From a virus, in IMG/VR virus record IMGVR_UViG_3300022594_000032, positions 1 to 22,040 of that record: a stretch of 22,040 bases of DNA; one strand, 5' to 3'. The notes under the pieces are model-generated. The model was given only the letters and a program-made list of their open reading frames with translations. It was not told the DNA's origin and searched no databases. Shown in pieces: positions 16,070 to 22,040 of the stretch (position 1 is the first letter of the stretch; every line of letters begins with the position of its first letter). The position numbers were made by a program, and so were the translations under genes.

Positions 16070-16492
16070 ATGAAAATACAGCGCGTAGACATTCGCCTCG
16101 ACTCTGTGCAGACGAGACTGTCTGTACTTCAAAAGAAATGCCTACCCTATGACAAACCTTACGACACAACTCATGGATATTGGTGGATTGCTACTAAGGA
16201 TGGTGTGGATTGTGGTTTCGCAGGTCTTGTTTATTCTTCTCGCTGGTCTGATTGCGGTTACCTTATACGCGCTGGTGTTGTTCCTAATTATCGTGGACGG
16301 GGATTACAGAAGAAGTTTATTCGCGTCCGCATCAGACAGGCGAAAACTCTCAAAATGAACTGGTTGATCACCAGCACCTACGACAACCCTGCTTCTGCTA
16401 ATTCTCTAATCTCATGTGGTTTCAAGATGTTTAACCCATCACAACCTTGGATGGCTAAACATACCTCGTATTGGCGATTAAAACTGGAGTGA
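16070..16492 (+). CDS. GNAT family N-acetyltransferase
   Basis: 140 residues. The acetyl-CoA-binding motif A is clear: AGVVPNYRGRGLQKKFI at about 69-84, with R/Q-x-x-G-x-G/A. A second motif, DNPASANSLISCGF, lies at about 105-118, where an N-x-x-S-x-x-L..GF pattern is usual. The preceding beta strands (YWWIATKDGVDCGFAGLVY) complete the fold. The enzyme moves an acetyl group from acetyl-CoA to an amine; the substrate cannot be read. The ATG has no Shine-Dalgarno site, unlike its neighbours. It lies right after the lysozyme and 2 bases before the phosphoesterase. Phage acetyltransferases can modify host or phage proteins or nucleic acids; which one applies is unknown. Confidence 0.8.
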   Translation: MKIQRVDIRLDSVQTRLSVLQKKCLPYDKPYDTTHGYWWIATKDGVDCGFAGLVYSSRWSDCGYLIRAGVVPNYRGRGLQKKFIRVRIRQAKTLKMNWLITSTYDNPASANSLISCGFKMFNPSQPWMAKHTSYWRLKLE

Positions 16493-16494
16493 TC

Positions 16495-17460
16495 ATGCCT
16501 CAAAAGCCCCGTGTTACCGATGCTGAGTTCATAGAATTGTGGAAAACACATGGTTCTATTACTGCTATACACAAAATAATAGGGGGCAATCTACGAACCC
16601 TTCAGAGGCGCAGAGCAGAATTAGAGACAAGATATGGTCTGTTATTGGAAGCTAAGGACCCAAACAATAGGCCAGAGAGATCGGCATCAGCCTATCAACG
16701 CAAGCAGCTGGGTGTTTTAAATGGGGTGGGCATAGTATTTTCAGACGCACACTATTGGCCTGGCATCATCACAACTGCTCATAAAGGTCTTTTATGGGCG
16801 ATTAAAGAGTTTAAGCCAGCATTTGTGATATGTAATGGCGATGCTTTGGACGGGGCATCTATCAGTCGCCACCCACCTTCTGGTGTATCAGGTAAAGAGC
16901 CTAGTCTCATAGAAGAGTTAAAAGCTTGTCAGAAACGACTTGCTGAGGTCGAAGAGACGGCCAAGGAGGCGCGTCATAACGTCAGACTAGTCTATACATG
17001 GGGTAATCACGATGCGCGGTTTAACGCCCGTTTAGCAGCCAATGCGCCTGAGTTTGCCCAAACCTATGGGTTTAAGTTAGAGGACCATTTCCCAGCCTGG
17101 GAGTTCTGTATGACCTGCTGGCCTACAGATGATTTGGTTGTTAAACATAGGTATAAAGGTGGTGTTCATGCAACGCACAATAACACCGCAACAGCAGGAA
17201 AAAGTATTGTTACTGGCCACCTGCACAGCCTAAAAGTAACACCTTATGCTGACTATAACGGTAACCGATTTGGCGTAGATACAGGTACACTTGCTGAACC
17301 ATATGGACCGCAGTTCAGTTATGGAGAGGACAATCCCCTAAATCACAGGTCAGGTTTCGCAATTCTGACATTTATTGATGGGAAACTTCTTTGGCCTGAA
17401 CTGGTTCATAAGTGGGACGAAAATCAGGTCGAGTTTAGAGGTCAAATCATCAACGTTTAA
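16495..17460 (+). CDS. Calcineurin-like metallophosphoesterase with N-terminal helix-turn-helix-like region
   Basis: 321 residues. ATG 16495 has GGAG 6 bases upstream; an in-frame TTG at 16471 lies inside the previous gene. Metal-binding motifs are in the family order: D84-x-H86 in VFSDAHYWP, G115-D116-x-x-D119 in CNGDALDG, G170-N171-H172-D173 in WGNHDAR, H226 and H229 in GVHATHN, and G241-H242-x-H244 in VTGHLHS. The N-terminal 50 residues (DAEFIELWKTHGSITAIHKI with a following RTLQRRRAELETRYG) look like a helix-turn-helix. Members hydrolyse phosphodiesters or phosphomonoesters with two metals, many acting on nucleic acids. The substrate here is unknown. It lies at the end of the late operon. 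Confidence 0.85.
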   Translation: MPQKPRVTDAEFIELWKTHGSITAIHKIIGGNLRTLQRRRAELETRYGLLLEAKDPNNRPERSASAYQRKQLGVLNGVGIVFSDAHYWPGIITTAHKGLLWAIKEFKPAFVICNGDALDGASISRHPPSGVSGKEPSLIEELKACQKRLAEVEETAKEARHNVRLVYTWGNHDARFNARLAANAPEFAQTYGFKLEDHFPAWEFCMTCWPTDDLVVKHRYKGGVHATHNNTATAGKSIVTGHLHSLKVTPYADYNGNRFGVDTGTLAEPYGPQFSYGEDNPLNHRSGFAILTFIDGKLLWPELVHKWDENQVEFRGQIINV

Positions 17461-17469
17461 AGGATTTAT

Positions 17470-17712
17470 ATGTACAAGGTCGAGATCGAGTTGGGTGGCT
17501 GGGGCGAAACAATCACAATCGAAACCAGCGATTTTTCTAAAGTTGCTTTGTTGTCTGAGTTTATCGAGTTGCAAGAAGAGTGCGGCTGGTGCGAAGACGA
17601 CGAATTAGTCTTCACTGACGAAGACGGTATCAGCTACTACTATGACGAAGAAGCTGACGAATGGATTGAAATCGAAGACGAAGAAGAAGACGAAGAAGAA
17701 GATTACGAGTAA
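17470..17712 (+). CDS. Very acidic 80-residue protein
   Basis: AAAGGA at 17460-17465 sets the ATG. The protein has 33 Asp or Glu among 80 residues and only two Lys and no Arg, giving a net charge near -31. The last 14 residues are almost all acidic (EIEDEEEDEEEDYE). The N-terminal part (EIELGGWGETITIETSDFSK) has beta character and the middle has two Cys (CGWC). Strongly acidic phage proteins sometimes mimic DNA and block restriction or DNA-binding host proteins. Charge alone does not prove that, and it may be a virion or regulatory protein. It is the last gene of the late operon. Confidence 0.65.
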   Translation: MYKVEIELGGWGETITIETSDFSKVALLSEFIELQEECGWCEDDELVFTDEDGISYYYDEEADEWIEIEDEEEDEEEDYE

Positions 17713-17724
17713 TCTTACGAGTAA
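17703..17724. repeat. Tandem near-palindrome TTACGAGTAA at the operon junction
   Basis: TTACGAGTAA occurs at 17703-17712 and again at 17715-17724, 12 bases apart. Each is a near-palindrome (TTAC/GTAA) that carries TAA on both strands. The first copy gives the stop of the acidic gene, and the second gives the stop of the leftward gene. The first is part of a 14-base inverted repeat (GATTAC/GTAATC, 17701-17714). No T-rich terminator hairpin is seen. Confidence 0.5.
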
Positions 17725-17906
17725 ATTAGAGGCATAACGTCTTGCACGATTTCTTGAATGCAGGCCAAGGTCTGCTCCACAGGGACATCGTGTTTACGCT
17801 GCGATCTAAGTAGTTCGCTAATTTCACTGAGGGCTATCCACGCATCACTTGCATGGATGGCTCTTTTTGCATCTTCTAGGTCTTCAAACTCTAGAGTGAC
17901 TTTCAT
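17715..17906 (-). CDS. 63-residue hypothetical protein, last gene of the leftward operon
   Basis: The chosen start is ATG 17906, which overlaps the stop of the upstream 33-residue gene as ATGA; a longer frame from 18068 covers two upstream genes and is rejected. The protein is helical and charged (VTLEFEDLEDAKRAIHASDAW, then ISELLRSQRKHDVP) and ends QEIVQDVMPLIYS. The fold is not recognised. It is the final gene of the early operon, 2 bases from the oppositely directed acidic gene, so the operons meet head-on. Confidence 0.6.
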   Translation of the reverse strand: MKVTLEFEDLEDAKRAIHASDAWIALSEISELLRSQRKHDVPVEQTLACIQEIVQDVMPLIYS

Positions 17907-18004
17907 TTCTCTATGCTCATGTAAAGCACGGCTATCAGGATTGCCACCCCAATAACCGCACCTGAAAAAAGTAAAGCAATAATGGTGAGTAAAGAATCGA
18001 TCAT
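17903..18004 (-). CDS. 33-residue single-span membrane peptide
   Basis: It starts at ATG 18004 and stops at TGA 17903-17905, with a strong AAGGAGG ribosome site 5 bases upstream. The sequence is short and almost all membrane helix (LLTIIALLFSGAVIGVAILI, then AVLYMSIEK). Its start overlaps the upstream stop and its stop overlaps the downstream start, both as ATGA. The strong ribosome site and two coupled junctions support a real gene. Small phage membrane peptides can act in superinfection exclusion or membrane stress, but no role is shown here. Confidence 0.6.
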   Translation of the reverse strand: MIDSLLTIIALLFSGAVIGVAILIAVLYMSIEK

Positions 18005-18252
18005 GCTTGCCTCCTTGCTCTAATTGTGTGGGCGCAAAAATTTTTTGTGTGATTGCAAGAAATTGCATCTAAAAAAATACCTGTTATTGAAATATCTTCA
18101 CACAACTTTGCACACGCCTCACGCTCTTTTCTAGCAATATCTGAATTAATGAAAGTTGCCTTACACGCCTCACAAATGGCTTCTATCAACTCAAGCGGTG
18201 TTAAATCTTTAGAAGCCCTCAAAAGGGCTAATTTTTCTGCGTCGCTAATCAT
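18001..18252 (-). CDS. 83-residue EREACAK-motif small protein
   Basis: The start is ATG 18252, overlapping the upstream stop as ATGA, with AAGGGG just before it; an earlier ATG at 18285 lies within the upstream gene. It contains MISDAEKLALLRASKDLTPL, a Cys-containing helix (EAICEACKATF), the motif RKEREACAKLCED at about 41-53 and an ending IRARRQA. The same motif and an IRARGQA ending occur in the gene upstream, so the two are paralogs. The motif is common in small phage proteins of unknown function. Confidence 0.65.
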   Translation of the reverse strand: MISDAEKLALLRASKDLTPLELIEAICEACKATFINSDIARKEREACAKLCEDISITGIFLDAISCNHTKNFCAHTIRARRQA

Positions 18253-18512
18253 GCTTGTCCCCTTGCTCGGATTAAAGCTGCACAAGCATTACTTGCGTAA
18301 TTAAATGCTTCAACAGGTGTTCCGTTCGTAATTACATGAGCAATCAGTTCATCACACACCTTTGCACAAGCTTCACGCTCTTTCTCTGCTGCCAGTTTGG
18401 CAAAGGCTTCAAGTTGCTCAAGATTGCACAAGAATTCAACATAACAATTTTGGTTTTGCCATGCCCTTGCACCAGCCTGTCTAGCCATCTCAATGATTTC
18501 ATCTTGTGTCAT
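18249..18512 (-). CDS. 87-residue EREACAK-motif small protein
   Basis: AAAGGAGAA precedes ATG 18512. The N-terminus is TQDEIIEMARQAGARAW and the middle LEQLEAFAKLAAEKEREACA, then KVCDE; it ends AALIRARGQA. It shares EIIEMAR and EELEAFAKL-type segments with the next gene upstream and EREACAK with the gene downstream. It overlaps both neighbours by ATGA. The probable all-helical protein has no catalytic motif. Function unknown. Confidence 0.65.
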   Translation of the reverse strand: MTQDEIIEMARQAGARAWQNQNCYVEFLCNLEQLEAFAKLAAEKEREACAKVCDELIAHVITNGTPVEAFNYASNACAALIRARGQA

Positions 18513-18754
18513 GTGTTCTTCTCCTTTAATTTAGCACCTATGGCTCGGGCTAGTATCCCTGCAAGGTCAGCCGAAATGGTGCAGTTGTGTTTTGCAAATG
18601 TCTTTTGCGCCTCCTCATCCGTCAGCCCTACCCATGTTCGTTGTTGTTTCTCTGCTACCAGTTTGGCAAAGGCTTCAAGTTCTTCATAAGAATTAAACGT
18701 CCATCCTTCAACGTTGCCATACCATGCTCTAGGTCTAGCCATCTCAATGATTTC
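18381..18754. repeat. Duplicated DNA between the two paralog genes
   Basis: The 20 bases at 18481-18500 occur exactly again at 18735-18754. A 35-base stretch at 18381-18415 matches 18647-18681 with one mismatch (G at 18391, A at 18657). Offsets are 254 and 266 bases, so an insertion or deletion of 12 bases separates the copies. This is direct evidence of tandem duplication of the gene at 18249-18512 and 18509-18766. A weaker third match (tttgcaca...tcacgctctt, 18107-18130 versus 18361-18384) covers the EREACAK segment. Confidence 0.8.
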
Positions 18755-18766
18755 TTCACTGTTCAT
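18509..18766 (-). CDS. 85-residue paralog with EEIIEMAR and FAKL segments
   Basis: Two adjacent ATGs, at 18769 and 18766, are possible; AAGG fits the second better, with about 6 bases of spacing. A longer frame from 18787 overlaps the upstream gene. It opens with NSEEIIEMARPRAWYG and continues GWTFNSYEELEAFAKLVAEK. It differs from the sister gene by ending with WVGLTDEEAQKTFAKHNC and ILARAIGAKLKEKNT. The W.GLTDEE motif is frequent in small phage proteins. Its 3' half is unlike the downstream copy, so this looks like a mosaic of the paralog family. Confidence 0.6.
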   Translation of the reverse strand: MNSEEIIEMARPRAWYGNVEGWTFNSYEELEAFAKLVAEKQQRTWVGLTDEEAQKTFAKHNCTISADLAGILARAIGAKLKEKNT

Positions 18767-18959
18767 CATGTGCCTTTTCTGCGCCACTTAGGACGCGCAT
18801 ACGTTCCAATAAGATACTTAAAGGTTCAAGTTTCATTACTCTAGCGCAACTTACAGCTATCGGTGCCCACATGCGTCCTGAGTCCGAACACACCCTCGTG
18901 TTCAGATAGTCCTCAAAGAAAGACTTCACGCAGGCTTTTAGTTCTTCATCTTGTGTCAT
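18756..18959 (-). CDS. 67-residue hypothetical protein
   Basis: The start is ATG 18959, which overlaps the upstream stop as ATGA; a start at 18971 has the Shine-Dalgarno too close. It begins MTQDEELKACVKSFFEDYLN, like the TQDE opening of its downstream relative, and ends ILLERMRVLSGAEKAHDEQ. The middle, VCSDSGRMWAPIAVSCARV, is short and has a Cys at each end. The last bases overlap the next gene. Function unknown; the shared opening suggests a link to the neighbouring family. Confidence 0.6.
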   Translation of the reverse strand: MTQDEELKACVKSFFEDYLNTRVCSDSGRMWAPIAVSCARVMKLEPLSILLERMRVLSGAEKAHDEQ

Positions 18960-19243
18960 ATAGCCTGCCATTCCCTTTCTGATCTACCTGAGTTAGACCT
19001 AGCTGTTTTACCTGTTAACTCCACCATCCCCATCTTTTGCATTTCTGGCAATCGCCTCCAAACCTGATCGTTCCGCAGGCCAGAATACTTTGCTATGCCA
19101 TCTTTTCCTAGGGGGCCATATCTTTTAAGGCAGGCATGGATAACTTCTGTATGGGCTTTTGCTACATCAGTGATGCTTTCAGCAGCCATATGACTTGTTA
19201 TTGGATCAAGGACCCGCGCTCTGAAGAAATCGAGTATTTTCAT
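18956..19243 (-). CDS. Small winged-helix/helix-turn-helix protein
   Basis: 95 residues from ATG 19243, chosen because it overlaps the upstream stop as ATGA; a start at 19300 would overlap that gene by 60 bases. It contains FRARVLDPITSHMAAESITD, where the DP.TS..AAE pattern is common in phage winged-helix proteins. A helix-turn-helix-like region follows at about 43-72: GPLGKDGIAKYSGLRNDQVW with RRLPEMQKMGMVEL. The C-terminus is Arg/Ser-rich (GKTARSNSGRSEREWQ). It probably binds DNA, perhaps as a regulator or replication accessory. The exact target is unknown. Confidence 0.65.
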   Translation of the reverse strand: MKILDFFRARVLDPITSHMAAESITDVAKAHTEVIHACLKRYGPLGKDGIAKYSGLRNDQVWRRLPEMQKMGMVELTGKTARSNSGRSEREWQAI

Positions 19244-19455
19244 TTCCTGACCACTCTGCGAAACATTCTGTCTGGATGCGTCCAAAAGGCTTGATGACAT
19301 CTGTTTTCCTCTTTCATTTGTGTTTTATAGCCAAATTTATCAGTACAGTCCTCACAGATCGAGCAAGTTTCCTTGACCAATCGTGCGAGGGCTAACCATT
19401 CCATAAATTGCTTTCTAGAGTGAAAGCATAAAGGTTTGAGTTCTTCGTCCATCAT
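19240..19455 (-). CDS. Small Cys-rich probable zinc-binding protein
   Basis: 71 residues. It starts at ATG 19455, one base into the upstream stop, with another ATG directly after. A C31-x-x-C34-x-x-C37 cluster (CSICEDC) and C53-H54 (NRCHQAFW) suggest a zinc site. The N-terminal half has EWLALARLVKET and the C-terminal half is basic (DRMFRRVVRK). Small zinc proteins of this kind in phage early operons often bind nucleic acids. The function is not established. It overlaps the downstream winged-helix gene. Confidence 0.6.
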   Translation of the reverse strand: MMDEELKPLCFHSRKQFMEWLALARLVKETCSICEDCTDKFGYKTQMKEENRCHQAFWTHPDRMFRRVVRK

Positions 19456-19745
19456 CAGAAGGGTACGGAGTCGTCCATATCCTCAACGGTTTTAACAGGC
19501 GTGTTTTGCTTGGCAGCTTTGGCCTTCTCAAGCACTACAGAGTTAAATTTCTCGTTGGCATAGATGTAGTTAAACCATTTGCCATCGTCCATTTTCTTTG
19601 ATGGGTACTTAACGAACTCACCCTTACTGCCTGACATGATGCTGCAACTCTTAATCGTGATAAATGGGTCTACGCCCACTTTAGAGGATAGGATTAAGTT
19701 AAAGGAGGGGTATTTGCCCTCTTTCCATTCGATTGAAATTTCCAT
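19455..19745 (-). CDS. SSB-like protein with C-terminal acidic tail
   Basis: 96 residues; AAGG precedes ATG 19745. The N-terminal beta-rich body (EISIEWKEGKYPSFNLILSS, ...DPFITIKSCSIMSGSKGEFV, KYPSKKMDDGKWFNYIY) is followed by a Lys/Ala-rich linker and ends EDMDDSVPF. The tail matches the C-terminal acidic tip of single-stranded DNA-binding proteins, usually D-D-x-x-P-F, which recruits partner proteins. The core (SGSKGEFVKYPSKK) also resembles SpoVG-type sequences. It is 2 bases downstream of the annealing protein, as SSB genes often are. Single-stranded DNA binding is inferred. Confidence 0.6.
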   Translation of the reverse strand: MEISIEWKEGKYPSFNLILSSKVGVDPFITIKSCSIMSGSKGEFVKYPSKKMDDGKWFNYIYANEKFNSVVLEKAKAAKQNTPVKTVEDMDDSVPF

Positions 19746-19747
19746 GA

Positions 19748-20365
19748 TTAACCTTTCTGTTTTTTAATTGCGGATCTGGTTGGTGCAGTTAACTGACTCC
19801 AGAGCCATACTTTTTGATCACTATCTAGCATTGCCTCGTCGAGCATTTGGGATGCTTCTTTTGCTTTGCCGACACTAACCAATTCCTCACAAGATGCTGC
19901 CATCTCACGTAAGAATTCTTCGTCTTCCTCATTAACCGTTGGGTTACCTTTGGGAGTAATTATTGGTGCATCACCTTTGCGTCTAACACCACCTTCTTCG
20001 GGAATGTCTTCACCACTAAAAATGTATAGACCGAGACCATGCAATGCCAAACCTTTTGTCATGCAACGCATGATGGCTGTGTTGACTGCAAATGCATCAG
20101 GATTAGGGATTGCTTTGTTGCGGTAATCCATCACAGGCAATTGGCAGGTCATTGGTTTGCCAAACATAACGACAGTAACCATCACCATTGCTGTGCCATT
20201 GATGTCTACAAATGGTTTGCCATCAAACATTTCTATCTTGTATGTGGCTGCTGGATCGGCCTTTAGAGCCTCTGCCCATGCCCATGCCCATGACAGGTAT
20301 GTCAGACCATTTTTCTTCTCTGTATGCTCGTTTACATTCAGTTTAAGTAGGTTCTCTACACTCAT
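19748..20365 (-). CDS. Single-strand annealing protein, Sak family (DUF1071-like)
   Basis: 205 residues. Conserved features are the YLSWAWAWAEALKADP segment at about 23-38, VDINGTAMVMVTVVMFGK, and NTAIMRCMTKGLALHGLGLY with IFSGEDIP at 95-122. These match the Sak/DUF1071 single-strand annealing family of the Rad52-like group. A charged linker and a helical C-terminus (about 145-205) follow; they may contact partners. Sak proteins pair complementary strands in phage recombination and repair. It shares an operon with the SSB-like gene. The ATG overlaps the upstream stop as ATGA. No matching exonuclease is seen in the window. Confidence 0.85.
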   Translation of the reverse strand: MSVENLLKLNVNEHTEKKNGLTYLSWAWAWAEALKADPAATYKIEMFDGKPFVDINGTAMVMVTVVMFGKPMTCQLPVMDYRNKAIPNPDAFAVNTAIMRCMTKGLALHGLGLYIFSGEDIPEEGGVRRKGDAPIITPKGNPTVNEEDEEFLREMAASCEELVSVGKAKEASQMLDEAMLDSDQKVWLWSQLTAPTRSAIKKQKG

Positions 20366-20544
20366 TTCTTTTCCTTTTTAATTTCAATAATTATTGGATC
20401 AATTAATTCTTGAGCATATTGCAATGCTTTTTTTTCCATGTCGTCACCATGAAATGATTGTTCGTAATACCAACGACGCTGAAACCAAACTTTACTTTCT
20501 ACTACCCAATAAGCTGTTGGATGTTTACGTACTCTTACTCTCAT
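20362..20544 (-). CDS. 60-residue basic hypothetical protein
   Basis: The start overlaps the upstream stop as TAATG, and the stop overlaps the annealing-protein start as ATGA. It is basic and aromatic (MRVRVRKHPTAYWVVESKVW with QRRWYYEQSF). The C-terminal half is helical (KKALQYAQELIDPIIIEIKK). The N-terminal strands with alternating Arg and Lys could bind nucleic acid. I do not recognise a family. Tight coupling to the annealing protein suggests the two are made together. Confidence 0.6.
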   Translation of the reverse strand: MRVRVRKHPTAYWVVESKVWFQRRWYYEQSFHGDDMEKKALQYAQELIDPIIIEIKKEKK

Positions 20545-20747
20545 TACTCTGCTCCAAATGCTAGTTCTAACTCTTCGTTGATGATGGCTTGCTGGTCTTC
20601 GGGATATAGATCCTTAAACTCAACAAAATGGTTTTCATGGCAACAGCCAATCTTTTCTTCTCTTGGCTGGCAACAATAGCAACAGTACTCAACACTTGAT
20701 GCCATAAACTCTTGCTTGAACTGTTCGTATAGGCTTTTTACTTTCAT
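20544..20747 (-). CDS. Small Cys-rich probable zinc protein
   Basis: 67 residues. A CCYCC cluster at 22-26 and GCCHENH at 34-40 (Cys35, Cys36, His37, His40) suggest a bound metal. Flanks are acidic helical segments (KSLYEQFKQEFM, FVEFKDLYPEDQQAIINEEL). This fold is common among small phage proteins with no known role. It may structure a zinc-bound hairpin for protein contacts. It overlaps both neighbours by 1 or 4 bases. Confidence 0.65.
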   Translation of the reverse strand: MKVKSLYEQFKQEFMASSVEYCCYCCQPREEKIGCCHENHFVEFKDLYPEDQQAIINEELELAFGAE

Positions 20748-20941
20748 AATTCCCTCGCTTTCATCATTGCGTCTGCCATTTGATATGCAACTTCAGCATC
20801 ATTTTGAAGTGTGCTTTCTTCATACCCAAGAAGTGCTTGCATAGCCTTAGCCGCAAAGTAATCACGCAAAGTCATGCCAGTTTGATATTTCACGCCATCG
20901 CCATAATCAACAACGATTGGAAATGCTGGTATATCTTTCAT
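20744..20941 (-). CDS. Small phage protein with GMTLRDYFAAKAMQALL motif
   Basis: 65 residues. It begins with IPAFPIVVDYGDGVKYQTGM, followed by TLRDYFAAKAMQALLGYEES, and ends AEVAYQMADAMMKAREL. The GMTLRDYFA.KA....L then AY..ADAM...RE pattern is very widespread in phage and prophage early regions, and its role is not settled. ATGA overlaps join it to both neighbours. The protein looks soluble and helical after a short N-terminal strand. Confidence 0.7.
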   Translation of the reverse strand: MKDIPAFPIVVDYGDGVKYQTGMTLRDYFAAKAMQALLGYEESTLQNDAEVAYQMADAMMKAREL

Positions 20942-21159
20942 ATCATTTTCTCCAATGCTTGGATTACTCTATCGCGCAACATGTCGATGATGTTTTGGCC
21001 ATCAAGGGTTTGCACTTCGTCAATGCTATACATGTCGTCATATAGCCTGTGATAAACAAGAATTAGTTTGTTATCTTCCCACTTTACATGCTTTACAAAT
21101 TGTGAAGTCTTCATGTTCCAAGTGCTGAAACCGTTTGTCCATGCGATGTTATGGTCCAT
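20938..21159 (-). CDS. 73-residue hypothetical protein
   Basis: ATG 21159 has a modest TGGA site and overlaps the upstream gene by 11 bases; an internal ATG at 21114 is a less likely start. Beta strands in the middle (MKTSQFVKHVKWEDNKLILV with YHRLYDD) precede a helix (IIDMLRDRVIQALEKM). I do not recognise the family and see no catalytic motif. It belongs to the same tightly packed operon. Confidence 0.55.
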   Translation of the reverse strand: MDHNIAWTNGFSTWNMKTSQFVKHVKWEDNKLILVYHRLYDDMYSIDEVQTLDGQNIIDMLRDRVIQALEKMI

Positions 21160-21397
21160 ATGTAATCCACAGTTTGTGTTCTAGTTCTTTTATTTCTTCT
21201 TCGATGTAGTTCAGTTGTTCTTCGTCTAGAGTGTCGGTGATGTCCAAACCTTTTCTGCTGCCATCTTCGTCACCGCGATAAAGAACTCTGAACTCATAAG
21301 ACTCTGGTTCGCCCCACTCAGGGTCACCTGCACAGTAGTCATACTGCACATCACACACACCTAGGTCGCCCAGGTCAACTTCAATCCAATCATTCAT
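21149..21397 (-). CDS. 82-residue acidic hypothetical protein
   Basis: It opens with NDWIEVDLGDLGVCDVQYDY, then AGDPEWGEPESYEFRVLYRG, and closes with a helix (EEQLNYIEEEIKELEHKLWI). The V.YDY..GDPE..EPESYE pattern is like small phage proteins with an unnamed alpha/beta fold. It is strongly acidic overall. The next gene upstream ends 3 bases before its start. No role is known. Confidence 0.6.
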   Translation of the reverse strand: MNDWIEVDLGDLGVCDVQYDYCAGDPEWGEPESYEFRVLYRGDEDGSRKGLDITDTLDEEQLNYIEEEIKELEHKLWITYGP

Positions 21398-21399
21398 TG

Positions 21400-21603
21400 C
21401 TATTCCTCTGCGAACGGATCGCCAAAATTAGAACTAATACCAGTGCTTAAAGATTTAAACACCCCGTTATCCTCTTCCACCATGTTGCCTTTGTCATCAA
21501 TCCATGTGCTACCAACTTTGATGAACTCAGCGCCCTCATTAGACTGCTTGACATTACCTGTTGTCACGTAGGTAATACCCGAATACTTGTCTGTTTTAAT
21601 CAT
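21400..21603 (-). CDS. 67-residue hypothetical protein
   Basis: Residues KTDKYSGITYVTTGNVKQSN and FIKVGSTWIDDKGNMVEEDN suggest a small beta-hairpin protein, followed by a polar tail (STGISSNFGDPFAEE). It overlaps the first gene of the operon by 8 bases. The tail ends with an acidic, Phe-containing stretch (GDPFAEE), which is reminiscent of, but not the same as, an SSB tip. Function unknown. Confidence 0.55.
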   Translation of the reverse strand: MIKTDKYSGITYVTTGNVKQSNEGAEFIKVGSTWIDDKGNMVEEDNGVFKSLSTGISSNFGDPFAEE

Positions 21604-21784
21604 AAAAATTCTCCATCTGTAAAACTCTTGACTTTAGGTCTTCTACTTGCTCTTCCAAACTACCGATATACACAACTAGTTCTGATACCTTGTTCAAATC
21701 TAGGTTCAGGGTTTCGTTAACCAGCTTGAGAGCAAACTCTTGACCGCTTGTATAACCTTCCTGCCATGCTGTTAAATAATCCAT
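21596..21784 (-). CDS. 62-residue coiled-coil protein, first gene of the leftward operon
   Basis: AAGG about 7 bases before ATG 21784 fits a real start. The first part, MDYLTAWQEGYTSGQEFALK, is helical, and about residues 36-60 (VVYIGSLEEQVEDLKSRVLQ) form a likely coiled coil. As the first gene after the control region it would be expressed earliest from the leftward promoter. Small coiled-coil proteins at this position are often regulators or anti-host factors, but nothing here shows which. Confidence 0.6.
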   Translation of the reverse strand: MDYLTAWQEGYTSGQEFALKLVNETLNLDLNKVSELVVYIGSLEEQVEDLKSRVLQMENFYD

Positions 21785-21879
21785 GCTTTGCCTTTCTCAG
21801 CCACCGTTTTCTGATGACTTGGGTAGACTTTACATCAACTTTGCGACATCACCTAAACATTTATTTCTATCTATTTGTC

Positions 21880-21899
21880 AGAAACGATAGGTAGTTTCT
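21880..21899. promoter_or_regulatory. Inverted repeat AGAAAC-8-GTTTCT, candidate operator
   Basis: The arms AGAAAC (21880-21885) and GTTTCT (21894-21899) are perfect complements, separated by 8 bases, ending just before the -35 of the rightward promoter. The 20-base span is a typical size for a phage repressor dimer site. Another TTTCTAT copy at 21864-21870 lies 31 bases upstream of TTTCTAT at 21895-21901. Confidence 0.4.
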
Positions 21900-21900
21900 A

Positions 21901-21929
21901 TTGCAGGCTGTTGTAGTTTGCGCTATTAT
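21901..21929 (+). promoter_or_regulatory. Rightward sigma-70-type promoter for the Cro-like gene
   Basis: TTGCAG at 21901-21906 and TATTAT at 21924-21929 are 17 bases apart. TATTAT differs from TATAAT at one position; the -35 keeps only the TTG core. Transcription would begin about 21936, leaving a short leader of about 20 bases with AAGGA before the ATG at 21958. Confidence 0.55.
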
Positions 21930-21949
21930 CGCACCGTTAACAACTACAA
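21911..21949. promoter_or_regulatory. Spaced inverted repeat TTGTAGTT / AACTACAA flanking the promoter -10
   Basis: TTGTAGTT (21911-21918) and AACTACAA (21942-21949) are 8-base complementary arms 23 bases apart. They bracket the -10 and transcription start, and the second arm overlaps the ribosome site. GTAGTT also occurs at 21891-21896. These may be half-sites bound by a regulator. The left arm lies upstream of the expected start, so an RNA hairpin is unlikely. Confidence 0.35.
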
Positions 21950-21957
21950 GGAAAGCA

Positions 21958-22040
21958 ATGAAAGTCACAGATTTACCTAAGAATGTCACTTTGTATGAAC
22001 TAGCAAAGGTGCTTGGCATAACAGCGCCAGCAGCTTACAA
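21958..22040 (+). CDS. Partial CDS, Cro-like helix-turn-helix regulator
   Basis: The gene starts at ATG 21958 with AAGGA 5 bases upstream and runs off the right edge; 27 full codons are visible. The segment TLYELAKVLGITAPAAYK has the helix-turn-helix pattern of Cro-type phage repressors (ELAK.LGIT..A...W). The divergent position opposite the leftward early operon fits a Cro-like switch. The DNA-recognition helix continues past the end, so length and dimer part cannot be judged. A CI-type repressor remains possible, though the gene looks short in pattern. Confidence 0.6.
   Translation, partial: MKVTDLPKNVTLYELAKVLGITAPAAY

Follow-up and report, generated by a model that had tools for sequence, protein, structure and literature searches.

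The closest described counterparts of the locus analysed here are phage modules in which a gene of single-stranded DNA-binding protein (SSB) type adjoins that of an annealing protein (annealase). Sak and Ssb are both required in 80alpha (PMC5499656), and modules of the erf-ssb and duf1071-ssb kinds are widespread among phages of Firmicutes (PMC8093625); according to both sources, the SSB-type gene lies directly behind the annealase gene and the pair is without exonuclease. HK620 Sak4 is, in the available text, a RecA-like annealase rather than a member of PF06378, and the last six residues (NDYPPF) of the adjacent protein, a distant SSB homolog, are needed for stimulation (PMC5928155). Redbeta of lambda Red carries behind its annealing core a small helical domain that is implicated, in excerpts of a further study, in exonuclease and potentially SSB contact (PMC9512822). 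An annealase-SSB module without exonuclease is already known and as such ordinary, and domain shuffling as such is not new because the annealase survey, in its available portion, mentions C-terminal domain shuffling among annealase families (PMC8093625).

The locus described here shares with the 80alpha and survey modules the gene order and a gene pair that includes no exonuclease, and with HK620 an adjoining SSB-type gene whose acidic tip ends VPF, compared with PPF in HK620. Unlike the partners in the available accounts of those systems, its protein in the SSB position is SpoVG-like, and its annealing core has been swapped with the tail kept; the SpoVG-like body and the tail retained through core exchange are the unusual aspects. 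SpoVG is absent from the main text of the annealase survey as available (PMC8093625), and the matches listed in open-licence PubMed Central included no description of a SpoVG-type SSB partner of an annealase. The window, by which we mean the whole stretch of DNA analysed, is a virus record of 22,040 bases and a fragment. Its features are:

19455..19745, minus strand: SpoVG-like protein in the SSB position, 96 aa (PF04026 18.7 bits, cut-off 29.6; hhalign to a SpoVG set)
19458..19475, minus strand: acidic tip DDSVPF, codons 91-96 (compared with the tips of alignment A1 and the partner ORFs of a 160-locus set)
19581..19631, minus strand: SpoVG core motif G39-G55 (GSKGEFVKYPSKKMDDG), with G39, G42, F44, P48, S49 and G55 invariant in alignment A2
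19593..19598, minus strand: K50-K51, the position of the SpoVG DNA-contact pair (KK in A1, KK or RK in A9)
19748..20365, minus strand: Sak single-strand annealing protein, 205 aa (PF06378 139.2 bits against a cut-off of 22.3, E 1.1e-40; phrog_659 E 2.4e-47)
19748..19981, minus strand: retained C-terminal tail, codons 129-205, tail type A (the typing of relatives was built with this tail)
19752..19758, minus strand: ribosome-binding-like AGAAAGG in the last Sak codons, from the sequence
19982..20365, minus strand: annealing core open to exchange, codons 1-128 (Sak in the window; most close relatives have ERF)
20362..20544, minus strand: basic ORF upstream of Sak, 60 aa

A sequence-only reading of this DNA had proposed a 60-residue basic protein, a Sak-family protein and a 96-residue SSB-like protein with a SpoVG-like motif (SGSKGEFVKYPSKK) and a DDSVPF end; we recovered these features, in minus-strand ORFs of 60, 205 and 96 aa respectively. 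That the three genes are co-transcribed, as it also proposed, is suggested by their packing only: an ATGA overlap joins the 60-aa gene and Sak, 2 nt separate Sak from the 96-aa gene, and the latter overlaps the next ORF by 1 nt. The three promoter-like sites in 17600-22040 fall below the shuffled mean of 8.2 and give co-transcription no promoter support. The 60-aa basic protein loses the place in the system that it had been given, being confined to the window record (also L001) and the contig of L002/L018 and absent from the other loci compared; it matches no family among the Pfam, PHROG and NCBIfam profiles. The 96-aa gene is under strong purifying selection (dN/dS 0.027-0.049, with dS 0.87-1.56 and dN 0.026-0.060, against seven relatives).

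The 205-aa protein belongs to SSAP_Sak (PF06378; named DUF1071/Sak3 in part of the literature) and is predicted to have annealing activity, with family matches stopping at residue 132 (Pfam) and 144 (PHROG). Among 16 related loci, the annealase upstream of the SpoVG-like gene is of ERF type in 11 (L003 in part), Sak in three (L002, L006 and L016 in part) and cut in two (L013, L017). Pfam confirms ERF for L004/G001 (29.9 bits, cut-off 25) and for MW202484 (33.6 bits). The SpoVG-like gene lies directly behind the annealase in all 14 of these first-set loci that show the annealase end. In L245, a divergent relative found later, 186 nt separate the two genes.

Sak and ERF cores have no blastp match to each other at E up to 1, and the last 77-79 residues are nevertheless shared across core types, with 93.5% identity between the window and L004 and 97.5% between L006 and L005. 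DNA homology between L006 (Sak) and L005 (ERF) runs up to the start codon, breaks, and is back from codon 129, and the SpoVG-like proteins of the two loci are identical. Between the window and L004 homology ends at the start of the 60-aa gene, which falls in a stretch missing from L004, and likewise resumes at codon 129, so that the 60-aa gene and the Sak core occupy the place of the L004 ERF core. These alignments indicate that the annealing core alone is exchanged, as Sak or unrelated ERF, and that the 77-residue C-terminal tail stays. Mapped onto a tree built from 17 SpoVG-like proteins, the core label requires 5 changes (bootstrap 4-6) against a shuffled mean of 5.1; shuffled core labels were as low for ERF in 305/500 cases, and strongly supported inner branches (1/13) force at least 2 changes.

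The last 67 residues of the window tail are modelled as four helices (pLDDT 91.4), with fragment residues R59, I62, K63, K64 and K66 invariant in 11 rows. Searches of the PDB (best Foldseek E 0.72, VIA Z 4.8), PHROGs and Pfam (best E 0.06, under cut-off) gave tail A no dependable match, and TPR-like and Tom20 folds were rejected given their weak PDB rows. The tail thus resembles the Redbeta C-terminal domain in being small, helical and placed behind an annealing core, but differs in having neither a confident PDB match nor a detected adjoining exonuclease.

The 96-aa protein had been called SSB-like, a label that its acidic tip and gene position uphold and that its fold does not, PF00436 (OB-fold SSB) having no match to it at E up to 1. 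Of the two profile comparisons that had been suggested, the one with SSB gave no match and the one with SpoVG is borne out by profile-profile alignment, though below the Pfam cut-off. PF04026 (SpoVG) is the best Pfam match of the protein, and the Pfam and NCBIfam SpoVG matches, both under their cut-offs, are in register (residues 23-62 with 23-62 and 23-60 with 23-60); the similarity is confined mainly to residues 23-71. The best-scoring relative, in L245, reaches 26.8 bits, still under 29.6. SpoVG is the sole Pfam family matched by the ten close relatives (10/10, E up to 0.1), and it is matched by 9/9 of the wider set A9.

Aligned by hhalign with a SpoVG set (A3) in which PF04026 matched 10/10 rows, the family alignment A1 gave 96.3% and a score of 55.2, rising to 97.1% and 63.8 with a wider set to which five divergent relatives were added. 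Leave-out comparisons were run because L072 came from a window-family motif and L032-L034 from tblastn with the window protein: the score was 47.3 without L072, 42.7 without L072 and L032, and 42.5 with only L073-L078, a subset that kept L077 though its record was a weak tblastn match (H11). By comparison, the highest scores from 300 column shuffles were 22.5 with A3 and 25.7 when L072 and L032 were left out. Chance resemblance is ruled out by these shuffles, by reversal (score 17.0) and by leaving out the window-family-derived rows, and the SpoVG likeness noted in the sequence-only reading reflects homology. That tblastn search matched 11 phage records, of which H7, H1 and H2 were examined; their proteins (L032, L033, L034) match PF04026, with 62.3 bits for L032 and 128.5 bits for L034.

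Other searches were weaker. Against PDB sequences SpoVG was recovered only weakly, at E 0.3 with the single protein and at E 0.11 with the set A9, and the A1 profile alone matched nothing up to E 10. Confidence in the structural model is low (pLDDT 58.7), and its first PDB rows are SpoVG, led by 2i9z (Foldseek E 2.0; VIA Z 5.2, rmsd 3.9, 71 aligned). BFVD gave one match below 0.001, an uncharacterised phage protein (A0A6J5N099, E 1.8e-5), a plasmid search gave one match, annotated SpoVG (E 0.7), and PHROGs gave no useful match for the window protein. A supposed cellular relative, L079, the one locus from a genome-contig profile scan, was a false positive in which KMDDGKW lies inside a 1,817-aa ORF.

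From these profile comparisons we conclude that the 96-aa protein is a divergent relative of SpoVG, related by homology, rather than a member of PF04026. It has the core motif GxxGxFVxxPS[KR][KR]xxxG, the DNA-contact pair and, in the weak model, the topology; it differs in its score under the Pfam cut-off, a shorter region before the helix, an SSB-like tip and its setting in a phage annealase operon. The basic pair K50-K51 is KK in 10/10 sequences of A1 and KK or RK in 9/9 of A9; in Staphylococcus aureus SpoVG, according to the accessible part of the report, K50-R51 is needed for DNA binding (PMC3688583).

The tips in A1 are DDSVPF, DDDVPF, EDDIPW, ESDIPW and ESDAPF, so that 10/10 end P[FW], and no SSB-like tip occurs in the ten SpoVG rows of A3. 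Other proteins that occupy this slot have such an ending too. In MW202484 the annealase is an ERF whose tail is of the window's kind (59% identity), and the 91-aa protein behind it, which ends DDGSDLPF, belongs to phrog_7364, 'single strand DNA binding protein' (E 1.2e-14). MW202691 has Sak with a phrog_18154-type partner (E 7.9e-8) ending DDDVDQIPF. MW202481 encodes a 139-aa ERF, a YqaJ exonuclease and a phrog_18154-type protein ending EDEDVPF. In MW202710 a Sak with a different tail is accompanied by an exonuclease (phrog_5715, E 2.6e-69) and by an SSB of OB-fold type (PF00436, 89.7 bits) ending DDDIPF. The PHROG 7364/18154 proteins thus share slot and tip with the SpoVG-like protein, behind Sak or ERF, but their bodies are unrelated to it. 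A whole-profile alignment at 82.7% includes linker and tip; the bodies alone give 0.7% and a score of 13.4, within shuffles (top 23.3 of 200), and homology of the bodies was rejected. Exchange of linker and tip between bodies was considered from PTR[RK] in the L016 linker, and is not claimed because that motif occurs in 21/122 unique PHROG-type partner proteins and 0/9 unique SpoVG-like ones of the 160-locus set.

That set comprises the best 80 of at least 581 loci from an ERF-alignment scan and the best 80 of at least 586 from a Sak-alignment scan, with ORFs read on the annealase strand only and the partner sought within 2.5 kb downstream; its counts take related loci as separate, and six contigs with SpoVG-like genes are common to the first set. 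Among these 160 best loci the partner is of phrog_18154/7364 type in 134 and SpoVG-like in 11 (six on known contigs, five new), with none or a cut one in 15; either type is present in 147 loci and both together in 0/147. If the tip is taken as a P[FW] end on a complete partner ORF, preceded by five residues of which two or more are acidic, it is present in 128/145 partner ORFs (SpoVG-like 10/11, the eleventh ending DDLDF; PHROG-type 118/134), compared with 7/2,082 other same-strand ORFs of at least 60 aa under a slightly different scoring rule. Five of those seven, which the partner call had passed over, overlap the annealase end or lie less than 400 nt from it: L106 and L216 are of phrog_7364/18154 type, and L125, L167 and L225 match phrog_18187. 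When nearest downstream ORFs were picked without HMMs, 97/144 bore the tip, the others including exonuclease, homing-endonuclease-like and overlapping frames. What we take to be HNH homing-endonuclease-like ORFs lie between or across the annealase and partner genes in L128, L175, L178, L194, L197, L199 and L200.

The phrog_18187 family is of unknown function, and its matches, which stand behind Sak or ERF and likewise bear the acidic tip (L125:4122-4400, E 0.0073; L167:4129-4416, E 1.1e-7; L225:4489-4800, E 5.5e-6), represent a possible third partner body.

A freshwater-type phage appears to have swapped the usual ssDNA-binding protein for a small SpoVG-like one with the usual acidic end. By analogy with the adjacent SSBs of HK620 Sak4 and 80alpha Sak, the protein most likely coats ssDNA while its tip brings the annealase. 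In this proposal, a SpoVG-fold stand-in for SSB would hand ssDNA to the annealase of an annealase-plus-SSB module: the body would hold ssDNA with K50-K51 facing the backbone, the flexible tip DDSVPF would recruit the annealase, and the annealase would pair complementary strands as phage DNA recombines and forms concatemers. Two parts are interchangeable, the annealing core (Sak or ERF) and the putative ssDNA-binding body (SpoVG-like, PHROG 18154/7364, perhaps PHROG 18187 type); the annealase tail, as a putative docking site, and the acidic tip are likely contact parts because both are kept while core and body interchange. We regard this SSB stand-in as probable, if by a modest measure of confidence. 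Against it stand the available descriptions of SpoVG proteins as binders of site-specific duplex DNA (PMC3688583) and of RNA (PMC4959528), the SpoVG match below the Pfam cut-off even in the best relative, and the weakness of the 96-aa model. A further point against it is that the acidic tip also accompanies annealases which have an exonuclease beside them and a tail of type C (the tail types A, B and C are described below), so that it need not work via tails A or B.

Should this hold, phages have adopted a fold known from bacterial regulators, that of SpoVG, in place of SSB, and the specificity of an annealase would be readable from two short parts, tail and tip, rather than from the annealing core, which bears on the host-dependent success of annealing proteins. 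Nature supplies swaps for testing this, since one tail occurs on both Sak and ERF, and L005 and L006 share an identical partner as well.

The exonuclease bears on how the tail is understood. No exonuclease gene was seen in the window, where the sequence-only reading had likewise seen no lambda Exo-like gene, and none was found when the search was extended by the following tests to relatives. These include G001 (39,413 bases), which is near complete, since a single gene is split between its two ends (residues 1-299 and 308-542). PF09588, PF12684 and PF12705 each matched 0/9 records (the window fragment and eight relatives), though Pfam also misses the MW202710 exonuclease; PF00436 matched 0/9 by genome search, with a control matching in 12/14 genomes. 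A PHROG scan of 36 chosen non-structural ORFs of G001 and G003 assigned families to 23, among them primosomal, replication-initiation, endonuclease and HNH families and no exonuclease. G001 also encodes an 89-aa endonuclease-like protein (phrog_93, L046:14664-14933), a relative of which is annotated VRR-NUC in MW202691.

The tails of the 160 best loci fall into types A (117), B (26), C (13) and other (4). By hhalign A and B are related (93.9%), and C is unrelated to either (A-C 0.07%, B-C 0.23%). A first tail HMM had left 38/160 loci apparently 'tail-less' (Fisher 7e-9), a result that was discarded when typing revealed 26 loci of the related type B. Type A sits on 71 Sak and 46 ERF cores, B on 8 Sak and 18 ERF, and C on 12 ERF and 1 Sak. 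A YqaJ-type exonuclease accompanies C in 12/13 loci, the exception (L161) being cut at the contig end, and A in 0/117, B in 0/26 and the others in 0/4. The exonuclease was sought with four query proteins in flanks of at most 3.5 kb, of which only the YqaJ query (from MW202481) gave matches, and the tail C HMM was built from exonuclease-bearing members; the association is a lead, not a test, because the counts share ancestry and physical linkage and rest on those four queries. Tip-bearing PHROG-type partners follow tail C in 11/13 loci, and SpoVG-like partners follow only A (9) and B (2), so that both bodies are found behind A and B.

We tentatively entertain a broader reading, possible but not probable, in which the annealase is a plug-in machine: a Sak/ERF-swappable core would carry a C-terminal adaptor tail that sets the supply line (a YqaJ-type exonuclease for C, none detected for A or B), and the ssDNA-binding body would be swappable too, with the SpoVG fold among the options and the acidic tip constant. 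In that case tails A and B would dock a host nuclease, or the tip-bearing protein itself, as a substitute for an exonuclease of the phage.

The alternative that survives best dispenses with any functional tie between tail and partner: recombination in conserved DNA would simply move tail, exonuclease and SSB gene as one block. Tail and downstream DNA do form one block across Sak and ERF types (97.9% over 611 bases, L006 vs L005), and the tail-type counts ignore kinship, with tail C on one Sak locus only. However, the break falls within the annealase gene, even though homologous DNA ends near the gene start too, both bodies occur behind tails A and B, and the Redbeta C-terminal domain, in the available part of the study, binds its exonuclease (PMC9512822). 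We hold linkage as the sole explanation to be possible but not probable.

Bacterial SSB ends in the tip DDDIPF, on which RecJ, RecQ, ExoI, PriA and RecO dock. The resemblance of DDSVPF to it suggests a second alternative, an adaptor or decoy that binds such host proteins and either brings a host nuclease for the annealase or blocks host repair, consistent with a near-complete relative (G001) that has no detected phage exonuclease and with a tip that is kept while bodies differ. Neither its unvarying position beside the annealase nor a direct tip effect on the annealase, for which Sak4 is the precedent, calls for a host partner, and we find this adaptor or decoy role doubtful. A SpoVG-type regulator of phage or host genes that recognises specific duplex DNA or RNA, and has only an operon in common with the annealase, agrees with the activities of known SpoVG proteins in the available account (PMC3688583) and with SpoVG in phage-like gut records (L072, L032) that have no annealase in view, but is unlikely given an SSB-like tip absent from the ten A3 SpoVG rows and a slot shared, in mutual exclusion, with PHROG ssDNA-binding proteins.

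Elsewhere, SpoVG genes lie close behind long ORFs in two human gut records (L032:357-3222 in MT836115; L073:8-2797 in MT837423). These long ORFs presumably resemble protein-primed DNA polymerases, and the L073 SpoVG protein has a long acidic stretch at its end; this may be a second place where SpoVG serves phage replication.

The window itself holds further minus-strand ORFs of note. A 65-aa ORF at 20744-20941 with TLRDYFAAKA matches phrog_2201 (E 1.7e-17), of unknown function, and ORFs like it lie directly behind the tail C annealases of L153, L156, L163 and L234. Three neighbouring short ORFs (18001-18285, 18249-18512 and 18509-18787) share EIIEMAR and EREACAK, as if by tandem duplication, and similar ORFs occur in L004. 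On the plus strand, 16471-17460 encodes a calcineurin-like phosphoesterase (PF00149 above cut-off; phrog_221 E 1.1e-24) that is also present in G001.
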